From Polychytrium aggregatum (lineage: Eukaryota > Chytridiomycota > Chytridiomycetes > Polychytriales): 64,000 nucleotides of DNA. A program made the translations under genes and the position numbers. The notes under the pieces are model-generated. The model searched no databases. It saw only the letters and a program-made list of their open reading frames with translations, and was not told the DNA's origin. The stretch covers positions 186,001 to 250,000 of the forward strand of contig NW_026516238.1 in assembly GCF_025602895.1 (NCBI RefSeq), in the 5' to 3' direction. Shown in pieces: positions 10,171 to 64,000 of this stretch (the stretch's first letter is position 1; each line of letters starts with the position of its first letter).

Positions 10171-11592
10171 TCACATATCCTGCGACAAATGCAAGAGAAA
10201 GTCGTCAGCATGCGAGTCTTCGAGGCACATGCCCCGCGCGGCGGCGACATATCCCGGATACTTTCCCGGCACGGAGCATTCAGCGCCTACCTCGGTCGAC
10301 CACTTGTATGCCTCCTCGGCCATTGCTGTCCGGGCATTCTGTTGCTGGAAAAGCCGAGCCTCAAATCCGTTGGAGCGATCGACGCCGTCCCACCGATATC
10401 CCGGCAGGATTCCAAAGCGGTTTGGCGGGCCGGGCGGGCCCGAGTACACGGCCTTGCTGCTGTTGCTCCTCTTCTTGACGAGACCGGCCATGGGATCGCC
10501 CCAGCGGTCGACCTGTTTCAGGCTTTCGTTGCGCTCGCGGTCGTCGGCATAGAAGGAGAACTTTGCCGACTTTTCAGCCTCGAGACGGCGGGCGGATTCT
10601 TCGGCCTCCTTGACCTGGGCATATCCCTTGCCCCAGACCATGCGGGCGCTTTCCTGCTCCTCCCACTTGCGCTGCAGCTCGGCCTGGCGGGCCCGCTCGG
10701 CGACCTGGTCGACCTTCTTGCCCATGCGGTCGCGGTAGACTGTCTTGGCATCCCGGCCGGTCAGCGAGGGGTCGAGCTCGTTGAACCGCTGCTGCTGGTC
10801 CTGCTGGCGCCGCTCAAAGTCGGCTCGGATCTGCCTGCCGGTTTGCAGGCCGGCAAGAGACCCATCCGACATGCGGATGGTGTTGGAATCGGGCGACGGG
10901 CTGCCGCCGCGTCCCCGGCGAGCATCGTTGGCATCGTTGGTGTTGTTGGTGTCGTCCTGACTGCCGGGTGGCGGAGGGCTCGGGCTGGGCGTGCGTCGTC
11001 GTCTTCGGGCTCGTCGCCGTGGCGGTGAGCTCTGCTCCTCTGGGCGGCCCGAGTCGTCTCTTGGACCTGTGGGAGAAGCCTGGTTGCTATCGAGCTGCTC
11101 GTTGTCCTTGGCTCCTCCAACCACAACCCAGCCGCTGCTCTTGAACCGGGCCTGTTTCTGCTGCTGGTCCAGCAGGCGGGCGGCATCTTCATCGATCTGC
11201 GGAGCAAACTCTCCGTCCTCGTCGTCTGCGTCGTCCCGGTCGGCGGCATTGTTTCTGCGGTTGTCGCCGTCGTCACCATCATCGTTGTCACGATCGTCCT
11301 CGTCGTCATAGCGATGGCTTCGGCCAAGCCGGGCCGGTTCAGAGGGTCGACCGGGTGCTCTCAATCCATCGCGGCTTGATCCAGCGTCGCCTGGGCCCCG
11401 ATTCCAGCCGAGACTGTCGTCGTCGTCGATGATCTGGGTTCCGAGTGCTGGCCGGGTCGAGCTCGAAGCCGATAGTGACGATGGCGCCGAAGCGGGGGCA
11501 CCGTCCTTTGTCTTTCGCTTCTTCTTCTTGGATCCGTCTCCAGGAGGGCCGGAGAGGTAGTGCTTGTTGAGATAGTCCTGAATGGACGACAT
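10171..11592 (-). CDS. BUD13: Pre-mRNA splicing factor BUD13 (RES complex)
   Basis: Subunit of the retention and splicing (RES) complex, which acts in the activated spliceosome with Snu17 and Pml1. Exon 1 is 11592-10291 and exon 2 only 9 bases (10179-10171, encoding Asp-Met-stop), giving 436 residues. I chose the ATG at 11592 (MSSIQDYLNKHYL) because BUD13 starts there in other fungi; an upstream in-frame Met gives an unlikely hydrophobic leader. The order is typical: Lys-rich N-terminus, acidic and Arg/Ser-rich middle, then a helical Gln/Glu segment and the conserved C-terminal block GPPGPPNRFGILPGYRWDGV, DRSNGFEARLF and AYKWSTE. Without the tiny exon the frame would run on into 37 unrelated residues. 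With it the protein ends in the family's usual EDM tail. Identification is firm. Confidence 0.95.
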   Translation of the reverse strand: MSSIQDYLNKHYLSGPPGDGSKKKKRKTKDGAPASAPSSLSASSSTRPALGTQIIDDDDSLGWNRGPGDAGSSRDGLRAPGRPSEPARLGRSHRYDDEDDRDNDDGDDGDNRRNNAADRDDADDEDGEFAPQIDEDAARLLDQQQKQARFKSSGWVVVGGAKDNEQLDSNQASPTGPRDDSGRPEEQSSPPRRRARRRRRTPSPSPPPPGSQDDTNNTNDANDARRGRGGSPSPDSNTIRMSDGSLAGLQTGRQIRADFERRQQDQQQRFNELDPSLTGRDAKTVYRDRMGKKVDQVAERARQAELQRKWEEQESARMVWGKGYAQVKEAEESARRLEAEKSAKFSFYADDRERNESLKQVDRWGDPMAGLVKKRSNSSKAVYSGPPGPPNRFGILPGYRWDGVDRSNGFEARLFQQQNARTAMAEEAYKWSTEVGAECSVPGKYPGYVAAARGMCLEDSHADDFLLHLSQDM

Positions 11593-11755
11593 TGCATTGG
11601 TGGGTTGCAACAGCAGAGGCAGGAATGACAGCAGAGGCAGCCGATGCAGTATCAGGTTGCTGAGATCTGGCACAGAGGCGGGCATATGATTGGCCAGGGG
11701 TTATGCCGGGGCGGATATCACGTGACAGCGGCTATATTACGCGATTCCAAATGAA

Positions 11756-24384: not shown

Positions 24385-25966
24385 TTAGTAGCGGCCTTGC
24401 AGAGGCTTGTTCTGCTTGGGGCGAGACAGGGAGTGCTGTTCGGCATCTCCGGGCTTGGCTCGTCGGGTGCGGGTCTGCTGGACCTTGAGCAGGACAAAGA
24501 CGGCAACAACCAGGGCCAGCCACACGCCAATGACAACGTAGATCCAGGTGGGGGCAACGTAGAGAATGCATCCCAGGATGATGTTGACGATGGCGAGAAG
24601 GGTCACGAGTCGGCCAATGTACCAGTGCAACTTGTCATGGAAAGGAACGGAGGTGCGATCCTTGTTGTAGAGACGGTCGATGACGACACCGAGGACGATC
24701 TGGATGAGCATGAGGACAGTCAAGATCAGGCCAAGGATCTAGGAAAGCAAGAAAGAAAGGCGGGTTAGAGGTTGTGTTGGGTGGCAATGGTTGCGACAGC
24801 GGGCCGTGAATCGAGGCATCGTCAAGTGCTGGGATGCTCGTGTGGACAGAGTCAGGAGCGATCCAGGTATCGACCCAGTGTCGACAATCTCACGTCGGCC
24901 CCGCATCAGCCCAGGATTACTGATCCCCCGGTGGCCAATCGACAGTCTCAGCATCTCTACTTACGCCATGCAGACCCGTGTCGGCGTACGAAAAGTGGTA
25001 GTCGCCGGCAACTTGCTTTTGGTAAAAGATGAGCCAGAAGCCAACCAGGGCAAGGACACCGCAGCCAATGAACTACACAGAGCGAGACAGGGGACAGCAC
25101 GGTTAGCACCGATCCAACACGCGGGACAGTGTGCACGGACGGGTGACACCTACCATGAAGAACTGGTGCAGGCGGAACCACCAGTTGTGCCAGCGCTCCT
25201 TGAAGAACTGGGCGATAAAGATGCCGATCGGGGTGGACACCAGCCAGGCAAAGGTCATGAGATAGCCGTGGGCCACAGTGAAGTCGGGAAGACTGTCACC
25301 GCCAGTAATGTCGTCGGTGTCGGTGTTGCCGCTGCTACCATTGTTGCCGTTGTTGCCATTGTTACTGCCGGGGGGGCTGGGGGCGCCGTTGGAAGACTTG
25401 GGAGGAGGAGGGGTCGAGGGCGAGCCACTCTTGAAGGAGTTGGCCGAGGTCAGCAGCGAACCCTGGATGATTCCGCGGGTATTCCGGGCGTGCTGAACAA
25501 AGGTGGCGGCGTTGGGGTCGTTCGAGGTGGGCAGCGAGCCAGTGACGTACGCCCAGATGAAGGAGGAGGACGAGGCCCAGGAGCTGGGGACGATCACGGT
25601 CGCGACGTAGACATTGCTGGGGACGGCGACCTTGCTGGCCTGGTTGGCCACGATTGAGATGGCCTGCTGGTTGACGGGCGAGGGCAAGCTGTGGCCAGAG
25701 GCTTGGCGGTGCGAGACAGTGACGGAGCCGTCGGTGTTTTGCCAGACGACGACAATGTCGGAGCCAGACATCTTGGAGCCGGTGCCGAGGGCAAAGTACG
25801 AGAGGGTCTTTGGGATCTGGAAGCGCAGCTGCACGGCGCCGTTGGCGGCGGCATCAGCGTAGACCAGGACGCTGGAGGAGGCAGCGCTGAGGGAGATTTG
25901 GGCCCACGCCGAGGGGACCAGGAGACAGAGGGCGGCAAGGCATGCCAGGAAGGCTCTGGGCAGCAT
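24385..25966 (-). CDS. Secreted-type DOMON plus cytochrome b561 membrane protein, copy A
   Basis: Predicted trans-membrane redox protein: an extracellular heme or sugar-binding DOMON domain (as in the cytochrome part of cellobiose dehydrogenase) fused to a di-heme b561 that moves electrons across the membrane. Exons: 25966-25154, 25072-24965, 24738-24385; 424 residues. The signal peptide is MLPRAFLACLAALCLL up to AWAQ. DOMON motifs: YFALGTGSKMSGSDIVVVWQ, PSSWASSSSFIWAYVTGS. A Gly/Asn/Ser/Pro linker follows, then b561 with conserved His in VAHGYLM, FRLHQFF, DTGLHG and HWYIGR. The tail is short and basic. It has a paralogue 2.5 kb further right with the same order of domains and the same intron positions around the second b561 segment. 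A role in extracellular metal or ascorbate redox is inferred. Confidence 0.9.
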
Positions 25967-28521
25967 GCTGGGCGAGAATCGGCGGCGAAATGCTTGGGAT
26001 GGGGCCGAGGTGGATCTTCAGCAGGACAGGGGGGTCGCTGATGCAACGATGCTGAGGAAGGGCGACGAGGCGGGAGAAGCCGCGGAATATATAGCCTGGA
26101 GCCGCGCGGTGATGCAACACGGACTGACGCATCAGGCCACGGCGGCAGGCCGGTGCCCGCGCCGCTGACGCAAATAGAACGGAGCGCACAGGGACAGCGG
26201 AGTGGAGAACAATAAGGGAGGCAGAACAGGAACAGTGGCGGACAACAGAGAGAAAATGAAGGGTGGCGATGGTACCACGGCGCGGAGGGTCCCACGGCGC
26301 GGGCACATGCACAACGGCGTGCAGCGTGCAATGTGCAATGTGTGCAATGGCAATGGCAATGGCAATGGCAATGGCAATGGCAATGGGCAATGGCAATGTG
26401 TGGAAGGTGCAAGACCAGGATGCGCGGCGGCTCCATGATTGAGACCTGTATCGATCTCAGACAGGCGACGATTGCGCATCCTCGCCGTCCCCCCACCACA
26501 AGAGCAACCGCACCAGACCCCAGCACGGCAGCACCGCAACAGGCAAAGGGCAAAGACAGCGCCTGTCCACTCAACCGCCGACAGATTTGCCGATCAAAGG
26601 CGCCAGGCTGCGTGCGCGTCAGCAAGGCGGCCGGACACAGCGCCTGTCCGTTCGTGTGCCCACCCCCTTGTCACGCTGACAAGGGACGGCGGATCCGCTG
26701 CGGCGCTGCGGCCGGGCTGTGTGACGTCGGTAAATAGCCAGCGATGCTGCGCACCAACGAACCGCGTGCCCAGCGCGGTAGGCACGGGGTCCCGGGTGGC
26801 GGGATGGCGGGATAAATTAGTAATACGCGCGCTGATTGGACGGCGCCGGTTTGCTGGTTTGGATCGGGCCTGGCTGGCACGGCGTGGGGCGGGCGGACGG
26901 GGAGCGGACGGGGAGCGGACGGGGAGCGGACGGGGGAGACAGACCAGGGCCGGGTGCGAGACAGCAGTTGCAGACGGCAGCTGCAGACGGAGCAGTTGGC
27001 CAGACCGTCATGGTGACGGAGGAGGAGACCAAGACAGAGAGACGGAGGGAGGCATGAAAAGCGGGTGCATGGAGGGGTGCGCCCGCAAGCGGAGGCCCCG
27101 AGCCGGCGCCCGCGACACGACACGGATTCGGCCGACGGTGCACGGCCTCGGCCCAGGGTGCGCCAACACCAAGCGTGGAACGAACCGAGGAAAGAAGACA
27201 TGCGCATGGACTTCAAGCCTTCAAAGACTCCAAAGGCCCCAAGAAGGAAGGAGCCACACAATGGGTCCCAGCCTGAATCGCACCGCAAAGTCAGGCTGCT
27301 CCATCCACCCATCCATCCACAATCTACGGCTGCCATCGCTTGTCTCGAGCCTGTCGGTGGATTGCATCCGTCTCGCCATCTCGGCCCTCCTATCGATCCG
27401 GCCCTCCTGTCGATCTGGCAATGTTGCCATCCTGACCATGCTGTCGGCCTGGCAATGTTGCCGAGCTGACCACCCTTCGCCCACCGTGTCTGAGCATCTG
27501 TGGTGGCACCGCTCACAAGCACGAGACGAGCACATCGGGCTGCCCGGGAGGTTGAGCATCACCGGGTCGTCCTGCGCGAGCCTCCCTGTCCTCGACGCCT
27601 CCTGCTGCATCCCTTGGTCCACCTTGCTCTGGGCCGTTCCCATGACGTCCAAATCCCCCCCCCTCGCCTTCCTGTGCTGGTCTGGTGGCCATCCTGTCGC
27701 CCTGTGCTCTTGTCTGAGGGGACCAATGCATCTCCTGTGTTCCCGTCTGGTGCCCACCCCTCGCCTTTCTGCCTTCCTGCCCACCGAATATCACGTCCCG
27801 TCGTCGTCATCGCCATCCATATGCCCGCCACCGCAACACTTTTTCGGCCACAAATGCTCCACCCGACTCGCTCAGCAGCCACCCGTGCCCAGCGTCTGCT
27901 TCCTGGGAGGTCCCCTTCGTTCCATGCTTGTCCGTCCATGTGCTTTCCGTGCTCGCCGGGCAATATGTCGTTCGGTCCACATGCCCTTCCAACCCATTTG
28001 TCCTCTCCCTCAGTCCCGCAAATCGAGAAAGGCGCTCGCTTCTGCTATTGCCAGCGTGACGGCGCCACCGAGACCACCGGACCTGCTCAGCGCACCTCGG
28101 TGCCTTGGTGCCCCTCGTCGAAAGCGACAGCCACCGACCCAGCATGAGGGTCGCGTGTGGCCTGCCAGGCGCAGACCATGCACTGTGCATTTGAGATCTC
28201 GTCGGCATTGTCTCGCTGCGTTTCCGCAGGTTTGCTGACTCGAAGGTCGCATCAATCACCAGCCGATGGTTTGAATCATTTCAATTGTATTCGAGTGAAT
28301 CGCGCTCGATCGCATCGTATAGATTTGTAAGAGTTCCACCCGTTTGAGGGAAAGAAAGCAGCAACCAGAAAATAGAAACCAGAAAATAGAATCCAGAAAA
28401 TAGAAACACTACAAAGTGATTGCCATAGGATGATGAGGGTAGTCAGAAAGAAAGGCAGAAATTTGGCCCCTGCGCTGCAAGGTGCCCCAGTTCTCCCGCT
28501 GTTGTGCTATCGTCGTTCCAG
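25967..28521. other. Long intergenic stretch between the DOMON-b561 paralogues
   Basis: About 2.5 kb. A forward open frame of 599 codons (26439-28238) and overlapping reverse frames of 180-280 codons are present, all Arg/Cys/Pro/Ser-rich with no motif, so I treat them as chance. Repeats: AATGGC hexamers at 26344-26398, GGGAGCGGAC units at about 26890-26935, and three copies of a CCAGAAAATAGAA unit at about 28361-28408. It includes the copy A promoter and copy B 3' UTR. Confidence 0.5.
26344..26398. repeat. (AATGGC)n hexanucleotide repeat
   Basis: About eight CAATGG units with one extra G near 26385. Located upstream of DOMON-b561 copy A. Confidence 0.95.
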
Positions 28522-31259
28522 TCAATTGCGCCGCATCGAGCCGGAGCCGGAGCCTGAGCCTGAGCCTGTTTCGTCGAGTCTCTGGGGCCCAGGTGAGTTG
28601 TCGTTGCGGCCGCGTCGGTTCAGCGACGCACTTCTGTCGCTGTAATTCGCAACGAATCTTCGGCCCTCGCTACCGCTGCTGCCAGTCGACGACGAGCCTA
28701 TGGTGCCGTTCCAGTTGGAGGAGCCGCCAGTCGGCCGTCCCCGGGGCGCGCTGCCAGAGGGGTCGTTCAGTCGGGGCATCGGTGGAGTCGCCCCAAAGCC
28801 CTCGGGTGTATCCAGACGCCGTCTGGAAAGCGAGGTGTTGGGTGTGTCCAGGTTCCGGCTGCGGGGGGTGTCGATCGTCGAGGCCTTGGACAGCGTATCG
28901 GCTCGGTTCATAGACCCAGGAGTTCGCTGCGTCTGCCAAGGCTGGTCTTCGGGCGCTCTCTCGGACCAGGCAGAGGAATGGTGACTGTTGGCATCAAAGG
29001 CCTTGTTGCTCGGGAGCCGCTCGATCGTGTCGGGGCGGGCCGGCATGCCGCCGCGGCTCATGCTACTGCTTCGGGAGGCCTGGAGCCCCTTGAATGCGTC
29101 TGAGTTGGCAGGGCGTCCAAGCGAGTTGGTCGGGTAGCGTCGCAGAGAGGCAGTGTCGCCGGTCGGGTTGCGTTTCAATGAGGCATCGCCGGTGGTTGGC
29201 AGGCGCAACAGCTTGACCGACTCGGATCCGGGCAGGTGCTCAAAATCGTGTCCCTTGGACTTGCTGAGATGCCGGCTGTATGCAAGCAATACAAAGACCA
29301 CCAGCCATGCTGCCAGGATGAGCCCAATGACCAGCCAGATCGTTGGATCCACGCCGTACAGAATGCAGCCGAGCACAATGTTGATGATCGACAGCAGCGT
29401 CGTCAGACGGCCCAGATGCCAGTGGGCCTTGTCGCGAACAGGGACCGATGTGCGGTGCTTGTCGTACATCCGATCGATGACGATGCCCAGGATGATCTGG
29501 CCAAGCATGGCGATGGTGATGATGAGCCCGAGAAGCTGGGATAGACGACAGAGATAGTGGGGATTCGTTAGCCCGACAGCATCAAGCCGAATGCAAGAGG
29601 ACTGAAATCAGGCGATGCGACCGATGCGCTGGGCTGCAGGTCAGAGCATCGAGCGACAAAGGCAGTGCAGACTATCGCTGATAACCGGCGCAAAGCACCC
29701 TGCTGGGAAGGTCCAGACGAGTCGCATAGCCACAGGCCTCGGGAAACACATACCCCATGCAGACCCGTGTCGTTGTATGCAAAGTGGTAGTCGCCGGCAA
29801 CTTGCTTCTGATAGAATATCAGGATGAATGCCGTCAGGCAGAGTGCTCCACAGCCAACGAACTGTGATGAGGCAGCGGCAAGACGCGAAACAAGCAGCCA
29901 AGGGGGGTTAGCACTTTGATCGGGGTCGATTCGTCGTCCATCCAAGTTGCCACCAGCAAAATGGACCGAAGCAGAAGCAGAGACAGGACATACCATGAAC
30001 AGCTGGTGGAGGCGGAACCACCACTTGTCGAGTGACTTTTTGCAGAACTGGGCAACCAGAATGCCGGCCGGACAGGCAATCATCCAAGCAAAGCCCATCA
30101 GATAGCCGTGTACGACCGTAAAGTCTGGAGGATCAGCTTGGCTGTCATCCGAGTTGTCTTGGCCCGATCCAGCGGTCGGAGTGGCTGTCGGAGCTGGGTT
30201 GGGCTGGATGGAACTCGAGCGAGTGGGGGATGCAGAGCCAGCTGAGGGCGAGACCGAGGCCGTCACGGATGAGCCGGAGGCAGATGCAGCACCAGAGTTG
30301 GTGGACGCAGGAGGTGCCGAAGGTGCAGGCGGAGGACCGTTGGCCTGGGCGAACGAGTTCTGGGGAACAAACAGGCCGCCCGAGAGCGTTCCTCTCGTTC
30401 GGCTCGAGTGCTGGGAAAAGCTGGCGGTGGGGTCGTTGGTGTTGGGCGACGAGCCCGAGACATAAGCCCAGATGAACGAGCCGAGCGAGCCCCAGGAGGA
30501 CGGCACCTGGACGGTGATGACAAAGGTGTTGGCCGGCACGGCAACCTGGTTGGGCTGATCATTTTGGAGCACGGCGATGCTGCTCTGGTCGCCCGGCTGT
30601 GGGAGCGAGTGGCCGGTGGCATGGCGGAACGAGGCCACGACAGAGCCGTCCGAGTTTTGCCAGACAACCTGCGGCGAGGGGAGGGAAGGAATACGAATGG
30701 CAAACGTGAGGAGGCTGCGTCGAGCCAAGGGGAGGCGGGCGGGTGGTATCGGTGGTATGCAAGCCAGGGTCCTGGCCAAGGGGTATGACATGTCCAAGCG
30801 CCGGCATCCCAGCACAGCCCGCTGTGGGCCAAGAGCGAAACCCACCACAATGTCGGAACCCTTCATGGACGATCCCGTTCCGACGGCAAAGTAGGCCAGG
30901 TTGTTGGGGACATGCAGACGGAGCTTGAGCGAGCCGTCGCTGTTGGTGTCGGCATAGATGGCGACTTGCGAGCTGCCGGTCGAGACGGTGCTCTGGGCGT
31001 GGGATACTGGCAGGGCGGCAATGGCAGATTGTCAGAAACCAGGTGTTGCCGAGAATCGACGGAGCCGATGGCCAGCCTCGCCGCACATCGAATGCTGCAC
31101 ATCCAGCCTCCTGCCCGACATGCATCGCAACAGCCGCGGCTCCAGGCTGGGAGGAGACCGCCGTCGTCCTGCACCAGCCCTGATCCACCAGGACGACTCA
31201 CCTGTAGAGCAGACCGCCAGCAGCCACCAGAGACGGCAGAAGAACGAGCCCAAGCGCAT
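28522..31259 (-). CDS. DOMON plus cytochrome b561 membrane protein with long Ser/Arg-rich tail, copy B
   Basis: Paralogue of the gene at 24.4-26.0 kb. Exons: 31259-31202, 31006-30846, 30668-29994, 29861-29754, 29535-28522, all in phase; 671 residues. The signal peptide is split by intron 1 (MRLGSFFCRLWWLLAVCST, then VSHAQ). DOMON: YFAVGTGSSMKGSDIVVVWQ and PSSWGSLGSFIWAYVSGS. Ser/Pro/Thr linker, then b561 with His in VVHGYLM, FRLHQLF, DTGLHG and HWHLGR. Compared with copy A it gained two introns in the DOMON part and has about 240 extra C-terminal residues, Ser/Arg/Asn-rich, ending in a (Gly-Ser)n run encoded by a CCGGAG/CCTGAG repeat. The tail is on the cytosolic side if topology follows b561, and could be a phosphorylated regulatory region (inference). 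Confidence 0.9.
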
Positions 31260-33565: not shown

Positions 33566-36500
33566 TCACACCCTGTCTTCGATGGTCTTGGCACGAGACA
33601 AACGAATCGAGCGAATCGTGTTGCCGATCTTCCTCTTCTTCTCTGGAGGTATCTTTGAGAATATCTTGACGGGCACCAGCAGGACACAGGGTATGATCGT
33701 TGCGATTGTCTCTTCGACCAGCGAGTCAGTCGATTCGATTCCATACTGGTCCAGGAGGTACTTTTGACGAAGCTCGAGAGAAAACACGACTATCAAAGCC
33801 ATGTATCCGACGATTCTGACGGCGTTGTCAGCCGCCAGCTTGTATGGCATCACAAACGTACTGTGGTCGGGCATAATGTCAGCGACAGACGACCTGCCAA
33901 TGGTCGGCGAGCCCCACCACATCACCAACATGTCGTCTCGCCAATGCCTGTTGGTGTCAGCGACGGTTCCCAGCCACGTCCGCATACTGCATACTGCATA
34001 CCGCACAAGCAAAAACATCCACAGAATGAGAAGTGTTGCGTATCTGGGCGTGTAGGCTGAGATGGTGGGAATACGGCGTCACTACCATGGCCGGTCTTGG
34101 ATGATCTTCGAGGACCGTGTGACATCCCGCCGAGCCATGTACAAGCGTCATTGTGGCCGATACCCACCTCCTGTCGAACGAAGCAGCAGCGGCAGTCCGA
34201 CGATCATGGAGCGCTCTATCAGGTCCACCGACATCCACCAACGATACCGTCGAACGTAGCAGCTGTACAGATCATAGAATGGATCCGTTACTTCCGATTC
34301 GACTGAGGGCACATTCGATTCGCTGTGTTTGCGACAGACAATGAGCGTCGATGCCTTGTTTGCAGTCCTTTCTTTGTCTCGCTGATAAAATCCCCGACGG
34401 AAGATGACACTGGGAAGTACGATCACTTGGGCGACCAGGATGATGCCGGACAACACCGCCACGGTTGTGTGGGAATCGGTCCAACACTGGCATCCGATCC
34501 GCCGATGGTGACAGTGGCGATGGTGGTGAGAGCGGTGGTGGGAGTGGTGTTGGCATGGTGGGTCGAGTCGAATGGATCCCAGATCAGTCCGACTCCAGAG
34601 TGACCCGATTCAAACGCACTGCCTCCACTCCAGCAGCAAGCAACGGCAAGCAGCGGCAAGCAGCGGCAAGCAGCGGCAACGCACCTGGACCGACGGATAG
34701 TCCCAAACGACCGATGGAAACCCCTCGATGGCCCGACAGGACAGGATCGTCACGGCTGGAGAGCACTGGTCAGTTCATCGCCTCATGCAAGCACCGACAC
34801 ATTCAAAGTGCTGACCCATTCAAAGCACTGACCCATTCGATTCACCCGTCGAAGCCACTCCCTCGTCGACATTGCTCACTCGACCACGCTCCCCCCCCCG
34901 GCGACTGTGCTGGCATCTCACCTGTGCTGTACACCGGACTGAAGCTGAACAGCGCCAAGACGATGACCGATCGAGTCAGCGAGTGTTTGAAGCTGGTGTC
35001 GAGGTACGGAAACCACCGAACTATCGTCTTCCAGGCCCTCCTGGCCAGCGGGCCTCGATTCGGACTCCTGAGCACTTGGATCAGAACATGCCACAGTCCC
35101 AGGCAGACGACCATCGCCATCACCATCACATAGGCCGAGATCATTTTGGCAAACTGGTCGAGTGGGAGGATGCATCCATTTCCGCCACTTTGGATGTTCA
35201 AGCTCAGGGTCAGAAACGCCAGGGCTCGAGACAGGGCCGTTGTGTGGTCAAAGTCCAGGAGGTAGGCAACCTGGTACACAAATATCTGAGATGGATGCAG
35301 AGACAGCGTGAGTTCATGGAGCATGTCCATCCTTGCCAGACAGCCAGTCGCCGCAGGGTCCACGGCGATGTTCTTGCCGCTCTTGCCGCATACTCGCAGC
35401 ATACTCGCAGCATACTCGCCGCATACTCGCCGCATACTCGCCGCATACTCGCAACACGAATGCTTACCAGGTCGACCAGAAATCCCTCCTTGGATGTTGG
35501 AATCACACACAGAATGCAGACGACAACGAAAATAGCAACAAATGCCGCGACTCCGACAGCAATGTTGCTGCCGAGGCTGTCGCAGTGGGTGCATTGGCCG
35601 CCCCATTCGTACTGGCCGCTGGGACACTGCGAACAGAGCCTGAAGAGTCCCGAGCTGTCAGCCGTCGTTGTCGCCATCGCCGTTGGTTGCATCTGCACGG
35701 ATGTGCTGCTGTGCGTGGATGTGCTGCTGTTCACTTCCACTCTGTCATCGACCCTCAAAGCAGCGACCGTATCACCGATCCAATCCATCACATCAGCGAC
35801 CATACCACCGACCCAACCTCCCTCGTGTTCCCAGCGCCATCTCGATCGAGTCCCTGCCGATACATACACTCCGCTGTGTTCGTGGATGCACTGGTTTCCA
35901 CCACCGATCGGGCATGCGTTTGGACAGCCTGTTCAAGGCAGAATGGTGAGTATCTGCACCATCGAGATCGCACCAGCAGCATGCCAGCAGCGGCCGTGGG
36001 GCACCAACGAGCTCACAGTTTGCGGTTGCATCGCACAGATAGAATGCGGAATCGATTGCCGAGGCATTCGCGTTGTACCAATAGCCCTTGGCGATCATGA
36101 TGCTGCCACTCTGGCACACCGCGCCAACAGGACAGGGCTTGCAGGTCGAATTGGAGTTCAGATTGTATGTTCCTGTGGCAATGGATTCGATCTGTGAGCA
36201 CCAGCAGGGTCAATGTGTCGACTATCTGCAGAGTCTATGTGTCGACCATCCGCAGCGATGCGGGTGCTGTCTGCGTTTCGTCGAGAGCTTTATCTTCCGA
36301 GTGCGAGGCAGTCCAGGCATACCCTCAGGACATGGGACACAGAGCTGCGACACCACTTCACTGGAATACGACTGCCATCCAGGCGGACACACTGAAGCGG
36401 GTCCGTGAGGTGGTCCATGGAGTGATCCGTGGAGTGGTCCGCGGAGTTAGTCTGAGGAGTTAGTCTGTGGACGTGGTGCATCGGCGAGCGACGGCGTCGG

Positions 36501-39500
36501 CCCTCACCTTCAAAGAGCGAGTCGGAGGGAACCTGGACATCCGAGCGAGTTGTGAACAGCAGGTGTGTCGTCGATGCACCGCCGCAGAGCATGGACCGGG
36601 ATGTTAGCAGTGGCCTGCCAAGAGCGATGCGGCCCATCAGCAACCACGGCCCAGACACCAGTCTCAGGGGTGGCCGTCTTGGATGACTCACCTTGGTTGA
36701 GCCATCAAAGTTGTAGTATTGACACATGTGACAGTCTGTGATGATCTCGTCGTTTTCGTAGTATGCCACGTAATCATAATTCATCGTGTCGTTTTGGCAC
36801 ACAAGAGAAATGATCGCATACGGTCTCTACAGATGGTGATGGCGGAGCTGTTATAGCAATAAACACTCAAGCCCGCTAATCATCATCATTACCGACCCGG
36901 CTGGGCGGACAGAGCACTGCCTCTGCCAGAGGAAGCATCGGACCAAGTCCAACAACGATCTCGACCACCGACCTCCACGATTCCATTGGCATTGAAGATT
37001 GAGTATCCCGATGCGCCGTCGTAGATCAGATTCTCAACGGCGCGCAAGGGATACGTCGAGTTGGTCGCCAGCAGCTGCAGGAACGGGGTGTCCGGGTAGA
37101 TCCGAGTGAGGTTGGTCTGTGAGACAACCGTCGACAGGGAGGTGAGCAGTCGCAGATTCGCTGCTGAGTGTCCACCGTTCCATGACTGTGCACAACGGTG
37201 CACGATTGTCCACGACTGTGCCGTCAGAGTATTACCCATGCCAGTGCCATGATGTAAGCAGCGTCGTAAATCGTTCTTGAGACGGGTGGGAGGTTGTTGT
37301 TCGCATGAGAAAGATGGCAATTGCACCGATTCACTCAACGACAGAGTGGGAGCGGGATCAGATCATCGGCTCTGCGATATGCGCACGGCTGGCGAGATAT
37401 CCACCTAGCAAACCATTCCCATGAGCTGCCCGACAACAGCGGATACATGGTTGCGTTCTGGAGCGACATGCTGTTCCATTTGTTGCTGAACTCGTTGTAC
37501 CCGACTCCGTTCGTGATGTTCGGATAAGCTATGGTTATAGCGGCCATGGAAGGCTGAGATCAGTAAATGGTGCGTTCCATCAGCACGACATCATAAGGCA
37601 ACAGTGCCGAGCCATCCGCGAACACGGATGCTTGCAGAACGTACGTACGATACATGTAGCCCTGTGCCGCTTGTATCGGATCACCGCTGAACCAGGATAG
37701 GTCCAGATACTCGTAGTACGGGATGTTGATGCCCTGAATGGTTCGGTGTGAGCACCTGGGAAGGCATCCTGGACGACCCCACTCAGCGACACCGACATCG
37801 GGCCGACGGCGCCACTGACCATCCAGACATATGTTGGGCCCACCAAGCCGCGCTCATATGCCATGTAGTAGAGATCGGATGTGTATGGAACCGAAGCACA
37901 GACGATGATGATCTTTGCCCTTGACTTTTGGAGATTCTCGAGAGGAATGGCCAGGTCGGAGCGGTTCCCTTGAGTGGGTCCGTAGAATCCCTGGTGGCGA
38001 TTGCGAGTCATGAGGCAGTCAGGCAGCCAGACAGTCAGGCAGTCAGGCAGCCAGGCAGTCAGGCAGTCAGGCAGCCAGGCAGTCAGGCAGTCAGGCAGCC
38101 AGGCAGTCAGGCAGTGGACTGTGGGTACTCTGGGACTGGGCACTCGGGGTTGTTTGACAGAGCCCAGATCCCGGCCCAGAGATCCAGGCCAGACCAGTGC
38201 CCCCCCCCTGTCCGTCACTCCACCGGCTCGGGTGCAGTTCCCACCTGCTCGAGAACGATATTGAATCCCATTGCGTTGGCGACGGACTTGGCATCGTCCC
38301 TTGCTGCAGGACATGACGCATGGGTGAATATGGCGTGTCCCAATCGTCCGTGCTCGTGAACATGATTCGGCTCTGGCAATCCACTCTGCTCGGAACTCGA
38401 TACGACCCACAGATCGAGACGACATTTGCAGCGGCTGGCTCACTGGCATGCTTACCCGTGGTTCCAAATGGCTCACGACTGTACATTAGAGCCACCTGAT
38501 TGTGAGTTGCCGGATGAGCAGATCAGTCGGCCGACACGAGAGATTCGCCCCCGAGGCGAGACCACTCGGACCAGTTGGATCGCTGGACCAGTCGGATCAC
38601 TCAGACAGTTGGATCACTCAGACAGTTGGATCACTCGGATCACTCACGGCACCTCAGCTCTGTTCAACAACACGGTGCATACCGATCGCCATCCCATGGC
38701 TCTGGCAAAGGCGAATAGTGCTTGGAGATAGTATATGCTGGGCTCAACAAGAGAGAGATAGGTCTGCAAGCACAACTCGGTGAGACGGCTATTGCGTTAG
38801 ACGGCCCCTGTGGGATCACTCCTGTGAGGCAACCACCGAGCCATCGGGACATCGGGACATCGGGCCATCAAGCAGTCAGGCTGCGTGCGGCTGGAACCGT
38901 ACCGGGTATGCTGTCCTGTTGGTGAGTATGGTTGCGGAGGTGAACAGACCGATGTGGAGGATCTGTTGATGGGCAGCGAGGTCAGTAAGCAACAGGCAGA
39001 TCAGTCGCCGGGTCTCTGAAGCGCGAGACTCACACGATAGAAACCGGAGATGGTTGCTTCATATTCATTTTGCTGAAGATATGGCGGAGGTGTGAGTCGA
39101 TGATCCAACGAGATTTGCACAGAGCGTCGCGGGCGGACGCACCCCACCTCGCTGGTTGTGTCTCCGATCACAGCATTGATGCCGTCGTTTTGTATCATAT
39201 CGAGGAGACCGACTCTGGAACGAACGCCGGCAAGGAGCCGCACTTGTGAGCGGCGAGTTCGGCGCAGCAATAGTAGCAAGTGCAGTAAGTGCAGCAAGTG
39301 CATGTGAGGCCCAGAAATCGCGCTTCGAACCATTACATTCCGTCATTAGTCAAGTAATGACTGTTTCTGACGACAGGCACTAGCGTGACATCTGCTCGTC
39401 GAGCACAATGAAGGTCATATTGGGTCCTGGGTGAGCATGGCGTCGATCACGGACGGAGGTTTGCATGAGAACGAGCGACGCGAAAGGGTCTGCATGCACC

Positions 39501-40335: not shown

Positions 40336-43189
40336 CTAACGAAGATACTGCGCCCTGATATCTTCGTCTTCGAGTTCTGACCCGGTACTGCCGTGCTCTG
40401 CAGCCATATTAAACCAGTATTTGGCCATATCGGAGTCAGGCTGGACACCTATGCCACTTCGATAGCATCGCCCCATGTTCAGCCGGGCATCGGCATTGCC
40501 CTGGTTTGCCGCCTGGCGATACCAGCTGATGGCCTCATCACAGTCCTTCCGTACACCTTTGCCCTGCTCGTAATGCTCCCCAAGGATGTTTTGAGCCCAG
40601 GGGTTGCCATTATCAGCGGCCATTCGTACGTAGTCCAGACTTGCTGCAGGATCCGGCCGAGGGTTGGTGGTGTTCGTGAGCCAGAGTCCGAGCCAGAGTT
40701 GGCAGAGATCTCGAGATTGCTCGTTAGCAAGCCTTTCGATGGTTGTCAGGGCCGAGCCCTGCTGACGAGCAACACCAAAGCCGCTGAAGAGACAGACAGC
40801 CGCCAGGTGCCCGCAAAGCCAATCTGACCTTGCACCGAGAGAACAGAGGCGGTGGAAGAGGGCGGTTTCGACAGAGCTGACTCTCGTCAGCCCTCCGAAG
40901 CAACCGGCATCCTTGAAGGAAAACTGAGGACAGTTGCTCTTCTCCATGTACTCGAGAGCCTTGTTCTGGTCAAAGTCAGTGCCTCGTCCGAGGTAATGCG
41001 ACCAGCCAAGCATCTGGGTGGCTATGGCTTTCAGTCCGTCGCTCGCTGACTCGCTGACCTCGGTCCAGTGGAAAAAGGAGCTCCTGTAGTTTTGACTCAC
41101 ACCGAGGCCAAGGAAGTAGAGCCAGGCGAGCTGGAACGAGGCACGGATGCACGGACGGGCCCCAGTGACGCTACAAAGCTTGAACACGGGCTTCCACACG
41201 TCATCGTCGGTATCGGGCTCGGCGTCAATAACCAGCTGCGCGACATCAGCACAGGCCTCGATGTCACCCCGCTGGAGTCTTGGAATCAAAGCTGCGGGTA
41301 TTTGGACAATATCTTGAATGAGCCTGAGCTCGCGTTCCGTCAGAGTGCTCGTCTGTGGCGTTGATGCCACACTGAGTGGCGTGCTTGAAGCACAATGTGA
41401 CAGGTGGTGGCGCGGGGTTCAGTCGTGGGGGGGGGATTGGGTGAAAGCATGCAGGTACAGAGTGATGAGAGAGAAGCAGTAGTCGTCGGGAGAATAGAGA
41501 GTCAGTCCGTTGCCGTATCACTGCAACTTGATAAGCGACTGCGCATACTACAGAGCAGGGTGTGAACAGTGCTTCTTGAGCAGGTTTGAGCAGTCCTCAT
41601 CGAGCAGGGTGATCGGACAGAGCAGCGCTCTCAGAAGGTCGATGCACTTACGGGTGTGGCTCATCGTCCGTCGGGAGAGTGGTGAAGTATTCAAGGCGAA
41701 GAACAATCTCCTCAAAGTAGGGTCGGTCATGGCGATCGCCATTCCAACAGTCTTGGATGAGCAACCACAGATCTTCATTCAAGCCAGGGATCCTCGGGGG
41801 ACGTTCGCCACGAAGAAGAGCCGTCTGTTGGCTCCTCGACCTCATGGGCTGGCCCTTATCATCGACCCAGCTGTGTCCCTTGTTCATAACTTCGTAGCAG
41901 AGGATCGCGAACGCATAGACATCGCTTTGTTCGTTGGTGCTGGCAGGACCATCAGTCCCGACACCAAAGAGCTCGGGGGCCATGTGGAAGGCGCGTTCTC
42001 GGTGCGCGTTGTGCAGATTGTGGTGGAAGCTCATGGAGACGTTTCTGGTCCGGGACATGCCAAAGTCGGTTATGACAGCATCAAATCCATTGTCGAGCGA
42101 GACATTGGCCGTGGTGAGGTTGCCGTGGACAACGCCGTTGGCATGGAGATAGCTCATGCCGCAGGCCACTTGATAGATCCAGCGGATTTTATCCCTTGTG
42201 GTGTACTTGTTATCAGGATTGGTGATATACGCCTGGAGAGTGCCGTTTGTCATCAGAGGCGAGACCATGAAGAGCCTCTCGTCAGTGTCGCAAGCGCCAA
42301 TGAGAGTGAGGATGTTGGGGTGGTTGAGATTCTTCCAGACGAGGAGTTCACGGCGAAAGTACTTGACGTCGCTCTCGGGGTAGGTGCCAAAGAGCTGCTT
42401 GACGGCAACAGGGGAGCCGTGGTACTTGGCCGAGTACGTTTGAATATACCCATCTTCGCTAATCGGGAAGGTAGACTTGTCCATGATAGACAGCGGCGAA
42501 ATGCGCCAAGATTGAGGCTCCATGGACCTCGACGCCGGCGACTGGCGTTGGAGCAGCTGGAGAACGGGATTGATGGCATCGATGACGCCCTGTTGGGTGC
42601 CTCTGGTGGCCGTCTGGATGGCATCGGTCAGTCGCCGGATCTGCCATTCTTGCATGTCCCGGAGCTGGATGCCAGCACCGGCAAGGGCGGCATTTGGGTC
42701 TTTCTGGAATTGCTCACGGAACTGGCCAAGCCTGGTGGCGTCTTGAATCTCGTCGCGGGCGACGGCTTGAGCGACGGCTTGGCCGTTTCGGCGAGCTTGG
42801 TTGGCGATGCCGATGGTGAGAGCCAGCATAATGCTCTCTCGGAGACCTCTGAGCTCCCGAGCAAAGCCTTGGATCCGTTGGCGGGTGTCGAATCCACTGA
42901 GGACCATTTCGAGCCAAGAGCGCGACTGGATCTTCTGTCGAAAGAAGCGCTCAATCTTGGAGTGAAAGTCGTCGAGACGCCTCACCTGCCTAACAAACAC
43001 GGGGCCGTTGTCCTCGCATCCAGCGAGCATCTCCAAGAGTAAGTAGGATTCTTGGGCCAACTCGGACCACGTGGCTTCGTTCTGACCAGCGGCCTTGACA
43101 TCGTTGAAGATCTTTTGGATCGAAGTAATGGATGCGCGAAGCGGCATCGGTGCGGCGTGTTGGAGAATGCCGAACGCAAGAGTGTCCAT
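40336..43189 (-). CDS. Helical domain, TKL-type pseudokinase and Sel1 repeats in one protein (MLKL-like architecture)
   Basis: Exon 1 is 43189-41652 and exon 2 is 41371-40336. The apparent stop of the kinase frame (CCG TAA) lies inside a perfect GTAAGT donor, and an acceptor CAG at 41374-41372 restores phase exactly: 858 codons including stop. Residues 1-150 are helical (IFNDVKAAGQNEATWSELAQ, LDDFHSKIERFFRQKI). The kinase domain spans about 255-510. It keeps the ATP lysine (SPVAVKQL), an RREL helix-C Glu, TDFGMSR and HMAPE, but the catalytic loop reads VVHGNLTTANV: HGN replaces HRD, so the proton-accepting Asp is missing, and the Gly-rich loop is degenerate (SEDGYIQTYSA). Exon 2 has Sel1 repeats, for example NPWAQNILGEHYEQGKGV and NADARLNMGRCYRSGIGV. 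A plain TKL kinase next to a separate Sel1 gene is the alternative. Confidence 0.8.
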
Positions 43190-43857
43190 GTTGCCGATAG
43201 CCCCAAGGGCGGGCGGATGGTGGTGCTGGGAGTGGTGGTGCTGGGAGTGGTGGTGCTGGGGGAGGGGGATTATATACCCAAGGGAGGCACAGCAGCCGAG
43301 GGTATCCAGACACTGCAGCTGGCTCTTGCCAAGGGGCAGAAACATCACAGCACGCCGCGTGACACCGAGCGTGCCCCAAAACGGCTCGAATGGTCGCCAA
43401 AAGGAAAGAGCGATTCGCGTTTGACATTGGCGACAAGGACTGCTGGGCCGCTGAAACCAGCGGCCATCGCCGAGGGGGTATCCAGCTGCTGCCCTCGGGC
43501 CAGGTCGCTGTCGCCGCACGGCACCCCAGAGCCGTCCCCCCAGCACCACCAAGACCGTCCTCCCTCGGATGGCCTGGATCCAAGGACCGCTCGGGGCCGG
43601 GGCCGCATTGGACTGTGACCTCGACTCTGGCTTTGCCCCGGCCTCGACTCTGGCTTTGAGCTTGGATTCCAGCAGCCGCGCGCTTCTTGGGTCGCCTCGG
43701 TCTGCTCCGATCTCTCCTCCGTCTGCAGAGCCGTCGGACGACCCAAAAGCCGCATCGGCCAAGCATCCATCCTCTTTCGCTGGTCTCCGGCCTCCCTCTG
43801 TCCACCCCCACGCGATCGTCTCTGGCCCGATCCTTCGGGTGCTCACCTTCATGATTT
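43190..43857. promoter_or_regulatory. Divergent region between the pseudokinase-Sel1 gene and the coiled-coil gene
   Basis: A 668 bp gap between two outward-facing starts. Three copies of GGGAGTGGTGGTGCT lie at about 43216-43262, just upstream of the pseudokinase start. The minus-strand frame is open through much of it, but the encoded sequence is low-complexity His/Gln and Arg/Pro, so I keep the start at 43189. Confidence 0.4.
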
Positions 43858-45034
43858 ATGTTCAATCGACAGTCACCCTCACGAGAACCCCGGCCCCTCC
43901 CGAGGCTGAACCAACCCGGAGGCCGCCGTGCTCCTGCAGAAGCGGTGCATTCCTCGTCTCCGCCACGTTCACTACCAAAATCGACGGCAAAGCCCCTTCG
44001 ACATCCCGGGCCGGTAACCCTTCCGCTGCAGTCTTCGACCAGAGCCCCCACTTTGATATCTGTCCGGGACCACGATGATCTCCGGATCAAAAGCCAGCAG
44101 CTACAGTCCCTGCTAACGGACTCCGAAGCCATGATCCAGAAGCAGCGAGACGAGATCCGGGTGCTCAAGCAGGTCTTGTGCGAGACACTCTTTGGCGAGC
44201 GTCATTCCGAAGTAGGATCGGAGCCGCCTGGGCTGTCGCAGCAGCTTGAGACCCATCGTCGTTAGGTCGCCGCTGCCGTTCTTGCCAGTTCCGGCGACCG
44301 AGAACCCGTCTCGATTGTCATTGCTGTTCTCGGAGGAAACCGAGCTTCTGGCTTTCTGCTGCATATTCACTTTGTGCCCTCCACCTCGCCCATTCCAGAC
44401 CCAGGCTGCGTCGATCATGGACAGGGACTTTAGCATCTATGCCGAAGGCGGCCATGCACTCTCGGAGCTTTCTGCTGCATTGCCGCCCAGAGAAAAGTCT
44501 TGGATCCTGTCTCATGAGCCCATCGATCCCTCGTCCTCGTATCAGCTGGACCGCATCCGGGCTGAGCGAGACGACCTTCGCTTCAAGTACCAAAGCGCCT
44601 TGAACGACGCACAAAAATACTCAGAGCTAGTCGAGGGCCTCAAGAGCGAGCTCGAGAACACCTACATCGACAATATGGCGCTCAACGCTCGCATCGAGCG
44701 GCTGCAGTGCACCCAGCCCATCGCCGACCATCTCCACCACAATGCTGTCCCGGGCCCGCACTGCGCTCCTCGGTTGTCTGGGGAAAAGAGGCAATCCGGG
44801 GGTTGGGACAACTCGCTCGCCCTGTCGCCCTGCTCGAGCAGCCATGGCCCCTCACTTGGGGACTATGTTGAATTGAAGCACCGATGCGAGCAGCTCGAGA
44901 GGGAGCGCGATAGCCTCGAGGAAGAGCTCATTTTGCGATACAGCCAGCTCCGAGAAAACGAAAAGCTCTATCGATCCGAGTTGATGCGGATCCTGGCCAC
45001 GGTGGGCCAAGCGCATCTGCGGGAGCTGGAGTGA
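43858..45034 (+). CDS. Unknown coiled-coil protein
   Basis: Two plus-strand open frames join well as one gene: exon 1 43858-44211 (donor GTAGGA) and exon 2 44405-45034 (acceptor CAG), in phase, 327 residues. Residues 1-65 are Arg/Pro/Ser-rich and probably disordered. Helical coiled-coil segments follow: RIKSQQLQSLLTDSEAMIQK (about 75-95), DRIRAERDDLRFKYQSALND, YSELVEGLKSELENTYIDNM, and at the end LKHRCEQLERERDSLEEELI. A Ser/Pro/His linker separates the helices. The protein ends HLRELE. I recognise no family. The coiled coils would suit a centrosomal, flagellar or trafficking scaffold, but nothing shown here decides it. If the GTAGGA donor is wrong, these are two separate small genes. Confidence 0.55.
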
Positions 45035-45379
45035 CGGAAAGTGGGGAAGGTCTATTGATCTACAACGCCACTGCCGAGGACGGCGGGGCCTCCTTCGATG
45101 CTAGACAGGCACCGGCAATAACCTCTGTCCGACTTCCACGGCCATCACGGGTGATGGTCGGTCATTCTATACATTCTATACATTCGCGATCCATGAATTG
45201 CGAAATCTCTATCACACAATGGTGCTGCTCATTTGTGAATGCGACTCAGATGCGCAACGCCCTCCCTCTTCCTCACGTATGGATATGGTGCACCAAGCTG
45301 CTCGATGGCGTCGCTCTGGAGCCGAGGAAAGCAGCCAATATAGAGTGTATGATCAGCTAGCGGACGAGGCTCGATGCCC

Positions 45380-47078
45380 TCATATCTGATTTGGCATGAC
45401 ATCCATGATGTGATCTGACTGGCTGCGGTTTGCTTCTTGACCGCCGCTGCCATTGATTATCCGATGCTCGGACTTTGGTGCGGTCTTTCTCCAGGGATTG
45501 CGCTCGCCAGCACCCCGATTCTCAAGGTACTCCAGCGTTGATATTCCAAAGGCCACTGTGGTTTGTGGAGAGACAGAGCCGTTTCAGAACCCATGCGCCA
45601 CAGAAATCAGACGGTCGCAGCGACCACTCGCAAGGGAAACAGTGGATCGAATGCAATGGGCAATGGCGAGGAGACTTACTGAGTCGAATGTGGAAGATGG
45701 TCAGATACCACATTGCCCCCGCAATCACGATACAGATCATCGAATACAAAAACACAACCGACACCACAGCGATGCCAACATTGGGCCCCTGGCCAAACAT
45801 CGAAGCCACTAGGAATGATGGATATCACCCAGATTAGCTGCGCTTGTTCAGCAACACGAGGAATGAGACGGGCTCTCACGATAGCTTCGGGACTGTTGCT
45901 GCTTACACTGGCTTTGGAAGTCCTCGTGGCGAGTATAGTATTGGCTGATGACATAGCATGCAATGGCCCCGTAGAGTGTCGTTGTGATCGAGGTGAGCAG
46001 CGAGGTCGTGAAGAACTGTCTGTAGTTCAGCCCACCGATGCAGGTCGAGAGGTACGGGCAATGGTGATCAAATTGAGCGACGCACTTGTTGCAGGGCTGC
46101 AGAAGCGATTGTCGATTGTGTCATCGTGAGTTCCTCTTGGCCCACGCAAAGAGCCCATCTTTTCCTCCTCCTCCTCTTGCTGCCGCTGCGACCTCCGAGT
46201 CCGAGCATCCCGGCATCCACCAGCCTACGGCAAACCGCAATCACCAGTACCTTGCAATGCTTGGTCGTTGGCGCCACCACGACGTTGCAAATGTTACAGA
46301 AGCCTGTGGCCGGATCGATCACAGGCACTCCGGCGTACTTGATAAAGTCGATATTGCGTTGCACGTTGGCCAGTCGCACGTTTGGGTCTTCCGTGTTGAT
46401 GCTCATTGTCCAGAAAGAAAATACGGCCTGGGCAAATGACAGCAGACCCATGACCACAAACGCCGCGACCCGGAATTCGTCACTCAGGAAGCGGGCATTG
46501 AACAGGAAGAAGCCCAAAACAACCACAAGCCATGTTCCCCACTGGCAGAGAAGATAGACTTTGGGGTGTGAGAATATCCACCAGCGCAGCGGAGACGATA
46601 CGCGAGACCGCATTCGAGATATTAGTGGCTGGGAGAACGGCGATCCGCACCCCGAAAGCGCCGCACACCCTGCCTCCAATTCAGTCGCCACCCTTCCGCA
46701 ACATGATCGCCGAGACACCCGTCCGCGCGATCGCCAAGCTATTGGGGATGCAGTCGCGACGGAGAAGGTGCCGTATGCATTCGATTGTACCCATAGCAGC
46801 TTGCGCACCCGCACGCGCAGAGAGGCTCACTCACTATGAAACGGCTGCTGCCAGCCCGACCGCTTCGACCAGGCGTTGAAGAACTTGGGATCAAAGTGGT
46901 CCGAGGAAAAAAACAGATTGTGGTTCAGGACGACGCAGGGCATGGCCACCTTCCCCGATGGCTGAGGCCTCGGGTCGTCGTCCATTTTCGTGTCCGCTGA
47001 CTCGCCCATCTGTTCGGAGGTCAGGATGACCGGAACAAGACCTCGTTGCTTTGACTGTGGAAAATCGGCGGCCGTCAT
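45380..47078 (-). CDS. DHHC-type palmitoyltransferase
   Basis: Integral membrane S-acyltransferase that moves palmitate to protein cysteines. The order fits the family: N-terminal cytosolic exon (ATG at 47078) with LFFSSDHFDPKFFNAW; two membrane spans (YLLCQWGTWLVVVLGFFLF and VAAFVVMGLLSFAQAVFSFW); the Cys-rich domain split by an intron near 46240, with FCNICNVVVAPTTKHCK and then CNKCVAQFDHHCPYLSTCIG; GGLNYRQFF; two more spans (SLLTSITTTLYGAIACYVIS and GIAVVSVVFLYSMICIVIAG). The last exon (45555-45380) begins in the TTxE-like motif STLEYLENRGAG and ends at a TGA. All catalytic DHHC residues are present. Introns 1 and 2 are uncertain: the junction before WWIFSHPK needs an unusual acceptor. The substrate protein cannot be inferred. 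Confidence 0.85.
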
Positions 47079-62168: not shown

Positions 62169-62180
62169 TCAATTTGCGGG
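61981..62180 (-). repeat. 200 bp dispersed repeat, copy 2 (inverted)
   Basis: On the minus strand it matches 56619-56818 from CCCGCAAATTGA onward. The last codons of the permease (Pro-Ala-Asn-stop, 62180-62169) fall inside its left end, so copy 2 supplies the stop codon and the 3' UTR of that gene. Confidence 0.93.
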
Positions 62181-64000
62181 CTCTGCCTCATGCTCATCAA
62201 TAACAAGCGGCTCATGGCTGTCGGAGGAATTGCTATTGGACTGCGAGTTTTCGTTCACTTTCTCCGGCACCAGAGGATACCGATTTCTCGAGTTCCAAAT
62301 GCCATAGGGGAAGTAAACCCCGAGCAAGCCAATAAGCAGCCATATGATCACCCTGAGAGTGATTGCAATGTTTCCGCCCATCCAGATCAGGGCAGCCGAT
62401 GTCGTTGCGCTGAGCAAGGGAACCAGGTTGCCTCCAATCCAGAATCCTCCAGGGATCTGGAATCGCCGCTCTCGCTCGGGCTGGCGCCAGCGCAGAATCC
62501 ATACCGAGAGCGACACCAGTATAAATGCAAGCAGGGTGCCGACCGAGGTCAGATCGGCCAGTAAGCCCACCGGGAATACCGAGCCAAGGACAGCACAGAG
62601 CATCCCGCTCAAGATAACGGCAGGCAGCGGTGTCCGAGTGCGCGGGTGGATCTTGGCGAGAAACTCCGGCAGCAGGCCGTCCTGGGCCATCGTTTGGAAA
62701 ATGCGAGGCTGGCCGATCATGGCGACAAGCATCACCGAGGCGAGTCCAACGACAGCACCAAACTCGATGATGACGGGGACCAGGGCCGGTGCACCGACGA
62801 TGCGCATGGCGTTGGCTACGGGGGCATCCGTGGGGATCTGCTGGTACGGGAGGATGCCGGTCAAGACAACCGACACCGATATGTACAGAAGGGTGCAGAT
62901 CGAGAGCGAGCCTATGATGCCGATGGGCTGGAGCGATGGACGAGATGAGACAGCGAATCCAGAGCCGACTGCTCCAAGATCGACAATAGAGCACTCTATG
63001 CAAGCCTCGTCTCCGGATGCATTCCTCGATCGACTCACCACATCGCGCTTGGGAAATCGAGCCTCTTGTGCCGTCGCCGAGACGACGTCGAAGCCGAGAT
63101 ATGCGTAAAACACTTGAAGACTGGCCTTGAACATACCCGCCATGCCGTATGCTTCGGTAGTGGGGTCGTATGGTGGAATGAACGGGGTGTAGTTCGCCGG
63201 CTGGATATACGACAGGCCGGTGCCGATGAAGATGAGAATGCACACAAACTTGAGCACAACGATGATGTTCAGCGTCGTTGAGGACTGACGGATTCCCGCG
63301 GCCACCACCGACATGATCAACAGCGAGATTAAGGCAGCAGGGAGATTCACAATGGCATTCGCCTGCGAGCCGTCCGGAAGAACCACAACGACCGGATAGA
63401 ATCCAGGAACGGGGTTGTTGATCCACTGCACCGGGGCATTGACGAGGCGGGGATCAAAGATGTCGGATCGCCCGCTGGCATCATGCACAAACGAGACAAA
63501 GTAGTTGGACCAGGCCGAGGCTACAGCTGCAGCGCCAACGAGGTACTCGAGGATCAGGTCCCATCCGATGATCCAGGCGACGATCTCGCCCATAGTGCTG
63601 TATGTGTAAGTGTATGCCGAGCCCGAGAGCGGGATCATGGATGCGAGCTCGGCGTAGCAGATTGCGGCCAGGGCACAGACGAACCCTGTGGTGCAGCGAC
63701 AGAGCATCGCGCGGCACCGAGGCACATGCATCGGTGAAATGCAATGGACGATCAGTTTCGGCACAAGAGCCGGGGCGGGTCTCTGCAGTCAGGTACCAGA
63801 ACCGTGGGAACACGTCCACCGACCGATGCGGCGGTGCCAACCATGCATCAACGGACCACCAGCGCCCGAACGCAGCAGCTTGCCCACACGAACACTCACC
63901 CGAGATTAGAAACGAAATCACGATGCTCGGGCCCGCGAGATCGTGCGCGGCCCTGCCGGTGATGATGAAGATGCCGGCACCGATGATGCCGCCGACGCCG
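62169..64000 (-). CDS. APC-family amino acid permease (CAT-like), 5'-partial
   Basis: Multi-span amino acid transporter; the N-terminus lies beyond the right edge. Exon pieces: 64000-63901 (partial), 63685-63039, 62927-62169. The edge exon has VGGIIGAGIFIITGRAAHDL, the APC signature in span 1. Then CALAAICYAELASMIPLSGS and AYTYTYSTMGEIVAWIIGWD, LEYLVGAAAVASAWSNYF, a loop typical of cationic amino acid transporters, VFYAYLGFDVVSATAQEARF, and GQPRIFQTMAQDGLLPEFLA with KIHPRTRTPL, the conserved loop between spans 8 and 9. About 13 spans are expected in all, with a Ser/Asn/Glu-rich cytosolic tail. The intron 63038-62928 is 111 bp, open and a multiple of three, so unspliced mRNA would still code. 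The substrate is uncertain. Confidence 0.9.

Follow-up and report, generated by a model that had tools for sequence, protein, structure and literature searches.

A gene on the minus strand of the window (the whole 64,000-nucleotide stretch of Polychytrium aggregatum DNA analysed here) raises the question of what a kinase domain that has lost its catalytic Asp might do between a helical N-terminal domain (NTD) and C-terminal Sel1 repeats. An earlier note, made from the sequence alone, had read this arrangement as a spliced fusion and as a candidate MLKL-like cell-death effector. We examined the splice, the kinase motifs, the NTD and the relatives of the gene within its own assembly (64.7 Mb, 418 contigs).

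Gene structure and spliced product

With the ATG at 43189, an intron at 41651-41372 and the stop codon at 40336, the spliced product is an open frame of 857 residues in the order NTD, kinase domain and Sel1 repeats. The features were located as follows.

41652..43189, minus strand: exon 1, with the ATG, helical NTD and pseudokinase (by motif); ends in phase 2; homologous exon in the paralog L009
41372..41651, minus strand: intron, 280 nt, GTAAGT...CACTCAG; the L009 intron (202 nt) is at the matching position and phase
40336..41371, minus strand: exon 2, with a linker, Sel1 repeats and the stop codon; Pfam Sel1 (PF08238), E 2e-29, four stretches
42734..43189, minus strand: N-terminal helical module, residues 1-152; AF2 model; joined directly to Sel1 in the paralog L046
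42503..42733, minus strand: extra helices between module and kinase, residues 153-229; AF2 model; aligned in the 30-member alignment
41696..42433, minus strand: degenerate kinase domain, residues 253-498; Pfam PF07714, E 5.2e-47
42119..42127, minus strand: HGN, residues 355-357, replacing the family HGD; sequence and family comparison
42059..42067, minus strand: DFG, residues 375-377, retained; sequence and family comparison
42398..42400, minus strand: Lys 264 of the AVK motif, retained; sequence and family comparison
43269..43276, minus strand: possible TATA element TATATAAT, 80 bases 5' of the ATG; read directly, putative function

Positions 43189..41652 comprise 512 codons plus two bases followed by the GTAAGT donor, and the kinase frame ends there and resumes in phase in the Sel1 frame, as had been claimed; the donor, acceptor and phase all stood, while the intron measured 280 nt and not the 278 given before. 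An alternative acceptor at 41324 is likewise in phase, but its use would delete TERELRLIQ, whose counterpart TDRELQFIQ exists in the closest paralog. A further in-phase AAG acceptor 12 nt upstream was noted by eye. The GTAAGT motif was not rare in the window (6 per strand vs 10.3 expected by composition), and the evidential weight for the splice therefore rests on the paralogs. Pfam searches of the spliced product returned the kinase at 160.8 bits (cut-off 23.1) and Sel1 at 101.4 bits (cut-off 30.7), with no model matching residues 1-252 up to E 1.

A modular kinase family within one genome

The window gene is a member of a large, modular kinase family in its genome, with at least 84 matches to exon 1 in the assembly (84 of 272 candidates were scored, and all 84 matched). 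Its closest loci were L009 and the near-identical L010, at 59% identity to the window protein. In L009 a GTAAGT donor was observed at the matching aligned position in phase 2, opening an intron of 202 nt whose longest match to the window intron does not exceed 7 bases, and exon 2 aligned along its length with that of the window gene. The earlier suggestion to survey kinase and Sel1 architectures was followed within the same genome, where the fusion was found to recur: 15 of 20 long-flank loci (L009-L028) encoded all three parts (NTD, kinase, Sel1) in an uninterrupted reading frame with no intron. These 15 are not independent, since they include close copies (L012, L013, L016, L019 and L022; also L023/L024). 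The split frame with an intron in L009 and L010 was observed among the other five. Because of the homologous intron in L009 and the read-through frames at these 15 loci, the fused NTD-kinase-Sel1 product is, from sequence, well supported.

Departures from this layout were also observed. One locus (L014:1456-5778) encodes the NTD and an intact kinase with WD40 repeats at the C-terminus and no Sel1 among the best 25 of 56 Pfam families, and, judging from this swap, one type of C-terminal repeat can replace another. L046:155-1804 (C290:308304-309953), which lies on the same contig as the window, is a single 549-codon ORF in which NTD residues 1-152 lead directly to Sel1 without a kinase. The open frame of L017 stops shortly after the kinase, and L021 is split into several frames. 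Among kinase relatives with no detectable NTD, at least three (L048, L049, L052) had Sel1 in the same open frame.

Loss of catalytic residues and selective constraint

Most relatives carry the motifs GGFGEVY or near, A(V/I)K, HGDLKxxN, DFG and APE, while those of the window protein read EDGYIQTY, AVK, HGNLTTAN, DFG and APE. The window kinase is without the catalytic Asp (Asn at residue 357), the catalytic-loop Lys (Thr) and the glycine-rich loop, and retains K264, the alpha-C Glu, D375-F376-G377 and APE. The HGN (H355-G356-N357) with retained Lys, DFG and APE described in the earlier note was confirmed by sequence and family comparison. The Asn stood as an oddity and the Gly did not, since HGx is the family norm and only the Asn departs from it; the altered glycine-rich loop (GGFGEVY in most siblings) and the Thr had not been reported. 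By motif, the HGN, the Thr and the lost glycine-rich loop support the reading of the window kinase as a pseudokinase. Its sister L009 keeps the Asp (HSDLRTAN) but has GFG in place of DFG, and so lost a different catalytic residue.

Under a rule based on the Lys, the HxD Asp and the DFG Asp, 22 of the 29 NTD-kinase sequences retained the catalytic residues, five of these 22 being close copies of one another. The residues were lost in seven, namely the window gene, L009, L027, L034, L037, L039 and L042, with Asn at the catalytic Asp position in six. L041 (YGD, DIG) passes the rule and was counted as kept. The fewest changes between intact and lost on the 29-row tree were six, with four forced by well-supported branches, on a tree from a quick search in which 15 of 26 inner branches were weak. 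Shuffled labels gave a mean of 6.5 changes, and 223 of 500 shuffles were as low as the observed six, so the losses appear scattered, with no trend. Six of 35 rows were left out of the tree: L010 and L024, as near-copies of L009 and L023, and L030, L031, L032 and L038, whose kinase either was truncated in the retrieved sequence or ran across two frames. Of the six, L010 scores as a pseudokinase by motif; the other five retain the catalytic Asp in so far as their sequence extends. All ten sampled kinase relatives with no detectable NTD had intact HGD, Lys and DFG; the difference from the NTD-bearing genes (0 of 10 vs 7 of 29 pseudokinases) was not significant (Fisher p 0.16). A long stem (0.88) leads to the window gene and L009, which may therefore have departed from the function of the family.

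Omega between the window gene and L009 was 0.23 for the NTD, 0.15 for the kinase and 0.23 for Sel1, values that are rough (dS 1.2-1.7) because pS is high (0.60-0.67). The most constrained part was the kinase, and the strong conservation of a dead-looking domain speaks for a retained role that would be non-catalytic.

The N-terminal helical domain

All 54 genomic candidates for the NTD were scored and 51 proved to be matches, a count that takes in pairs of equal score. An AF2 model of residues 1-229 built from a 30-member alignment was all helical (pLDDT 92.2, pTM 0.86), with helices at 3-12, 15-34, 38-56, 63-88, 92-97, 99-124, 135-163, 165-171, 181-197, 200-216 and 218-221. A helical domain in the first 150 residues, as first proposed, is borne out by this model, and L046, where residues 1-152 sit on Sel1 without a kinase, marks these first 150 residues as a separable module. 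The first 18 residues were hydrophobic, ranking within the top 5% of the domain in 17 of 27 rows, and their helical moment was not raised (median rank 0.61; 27 rows). Searched alone, the window NTD matched a single Pfam family up to E 1, TBPIP_N, with no match to the fungal HeLo, HELL, SesA or Goodbye domains in that range, and these four were also absent among the best 25 of 43 families in other members. No match with E <=0.001 was found by Foldseek against viral models, and none was found in viral contigs scanned with the NTD of one relative.

The earlier note had suggested an MLKL-type or HeLo-type executioner domain, to be checked by HMM search and structure comparison. No Pfam MLKL_N match was found in the window protein. 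MLKL_N was the Pfam family that matched the greatest number of members, though this was 5 of 30 and below threshold (best E 0.0025), and in ten members rerun singly it was recovered in three, collinear, with the two best spanning profile positions 5-135 of 142. A reversed-sequence control of the 30 NTDs gave two unrelated families at 4 of 30 each (best E 0.0028), and E-values better than those of MLKL_N were measured in single members for DUF2935 (0.00014), Phasin_2 (0.0002) and FAM220 (0.001). Of two family consensus sequences, one placed MLKL_N last among six families (E 0.13), whereas no MLKL_N match came from the second. The NTD profile gave seven matches to PDB sequences up to E 10, the best being MmpL5 (E 0.0026) and none MLKL. 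None of the 58 Foldseek matches in the PDB reached E 0.001, and MLKL was absent from the best 50 of them; a control model for L043/L044, the MLKL_N-like kinases of the same genome, was of low confidence (AF2 pLDDT 54.1) and equally free of MLKL among its best 50 of 340 matches, so the Foldseek negative weighs little.

These two loci (L043:761-3541 on C24; L044:538-3240 on C96) encode kinases with MLKL_N and beta-propeller-like C-termini. Against a cut-off of 27, six-frame MLKL_N searches scored C24 at 27.6 bits (over) and C96 at 19.2 (under), while the whole proteins scored 23.6 and 16 bits, both under. By eye, no DFG was seen in their translations, and one has HGD and the other HGN. In the control genomes, 1 of 14 also matched MLKL_N, below the cut-off. 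Compared by hhalign, the NTD and the profile of L043/L044 matched at E 0.068 (probability 0.8%). Taking the sub-threshold matches, the reversed control, the consensus, hhalign and Foldseek results together, we regard kinship of the NTD with MLKL as conceivable though doubtful, and an executioner function, which these comparisons do not establish, as unlikely.

Discussion

We give about an even chance to the reading that the window gene encodes a non-catalytic, receptor-like scaffold in a large family built from a helical NTD, a TKL/TK-like kinase and C-terminal repeats. Most likely the protein would be a pseudokinase that senses or scaffolds in concert with active siblings. The Sel1 solenoid may bind a partner or ligand, the pseudokinase would serve as a docking and conformational module with no phosphotransfer, and the NTD could assemble homotypically with its counterparts on siblings whose catalytic residues are intact. 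In this way the window protein might tune or gate, by scaffolding or restraining, the signalling of those siblings. The NTD occurs mostly on intact kinases, once before WD40 and once on Sel1 alone, which makes assembly or partner binding its simplest role; in the simplest function common to the family, the repeats would add recognition and the kinase would signal. Pseudokinases that gate their siblings are familiar, with KSR tuning RAF and IRAK-M tuning the IRAKs. Like the window protein, these are degenerate TKL kinases in families whose active members share non-kinase domains; to our knowledge neither has Sel1 repeats. KSR chains were present among the best 60 of 1002 PDB sequences.

An MLKL-like executioner, in which a HeLo or four-helix-bundle NTD would disrupt membranes under a pseudokinase switch and a Sel1 sensor, we consider improbable, at perhaps one chance in several. 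It is favoured by the helical domain preceding a TKL-like pseudokinase, by MLKL_N matching the most members and aligning collinearly, by the hydrophobic first residues and by the presence in the same genome of kinases with MLKL_N. Published descriptions add to this, in that PMC9815663 describes an extra N-terminal helix in basidiomycete MLKL-likes, which the extra N-terminal helix of the NTD resembles, and PMC8778642 reports Sel1-bearing homologs of MLKL, which it found in Glomeromycotina alone. Against it, reversed sequences matched unrelated families almost as often, unrelated families scored better in single members, and the window protein, the consensus sequences and Foldseek gave little or no sign of MLKL. 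This NTD also stands before intact kinases in 22 of the 29 sequences, close copies included, a pattern at odds with a domain peculiar to killers with a dead kinase.

The other alternatives to a scaffold are weaker still. Some proteins without the HRD Asp retain nucleotide binding or rare activity, and with Lys 264, the alpha-C Glu and DFG retained, the kinase could still be active through another residue or an alternative nucleotide chemistry; the joint alteration of the catalytic Asp, the catalytic-loop Lys and the glycine-rich loop, and the loss of the DFG Asp instead in the sister, make this quite improbable. A decaying duplicate without function would explain the lost catalytic residues and might suit the dispersed repeat close downstream, but 857 spliced codons without a stop or frameshift, and omega values well short of 1 for NTD, kinase and Sel1 alike, render it very unlikely. 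Least credible are two separate genes, in which the kinase ORF would end with CCG TAA and Sel1 would form an ORF of its own: the genomic frame does stop there and Sel1 lies in a different frame, yet the intron homologous to that of L009 (and of L010, its near-copy), the read-through ORFs and the open spliced frame all argue for one product.

Several known systems resemble parts of the scaffold-like protein favoured here. Many Sel1 kinase genes of the same genome likewise have a TKL/TK-like kinase followed by Sel1 repeats; the window gene differs in adding the NTD and a degenerate kinase. Many-copy kinase and Sel1-like classes are already known in Rhizophagus irregularis, where PMC8647823 lists both among the high-copy gene classes, a likeness at the level of gene classes. 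MLKL, the effector of animal necroptosis, and the fungal HELL/HeLo-kinase proteins also place a helical domain before a pseudokinase, and could work alike; in contrast, the window protein has Sel1 after the kinase and its NTD also occurs on intact kinases. The Glomeromycotina homologs, compared by description only, share the MLKL label and Sel1 in early-diverging fungi. According to a review (PMC12881547), certain HELL domains of fungi form an integral part of proteins with a kinase or pseudokinase. Among the open-licence papers searched, we saw no account of this NTD, nor of catalytic residues being lost repeatedly in a family of this kind.

The family offers a natural series, within one genome, for how kinases become pseudokinases, holding many copies of the NTD on intact kinases, six or more apparent transitions between the intact and the lost state, one swap to WD40 and one NTD-Sel1 protein that lacks a kinase. 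If the NTD were HeLo-like or MLKL-like, a necroptosis-type architecture would exist in this lineage, and one could ask whether the killer domain preceded the loss of kinase activity. A bolder proposal, that the lineage built a sensor-switch-executioner repertoire on a kinase rather than an NLR chassis, with a membrane-active NTD, a repeated pseudokinase switch and exchangeable Sel1/WD40 sensors, seems to us a little less probable again than the executioner itself. NB-ARC domains gave six matches from 55 scored candidates in the genome, few beside the matches of the kinase family.

Surroundings of the gene

The region at 36500-39500 of the window is a dispersed repeat near the gene, with copies at five other places on four contigs (90-92% identity, 1.1-2.9 kb) and three short matching pieces besides. 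The flank at 44300-46300 had one match in the assembly; absence of a second allele was considered and set aside, as a single match fits collapse and hemizygosity alike. Elsewhere in the window we observed two proteins with cellobiose-dehydrogenase cytochrome (CDH-cyt) domains (25106-26017, also with a weak DOMON match, and 29571-31031), the Bud13 splicing factor (10177-11700) and an amino acid permease (62172-63788).
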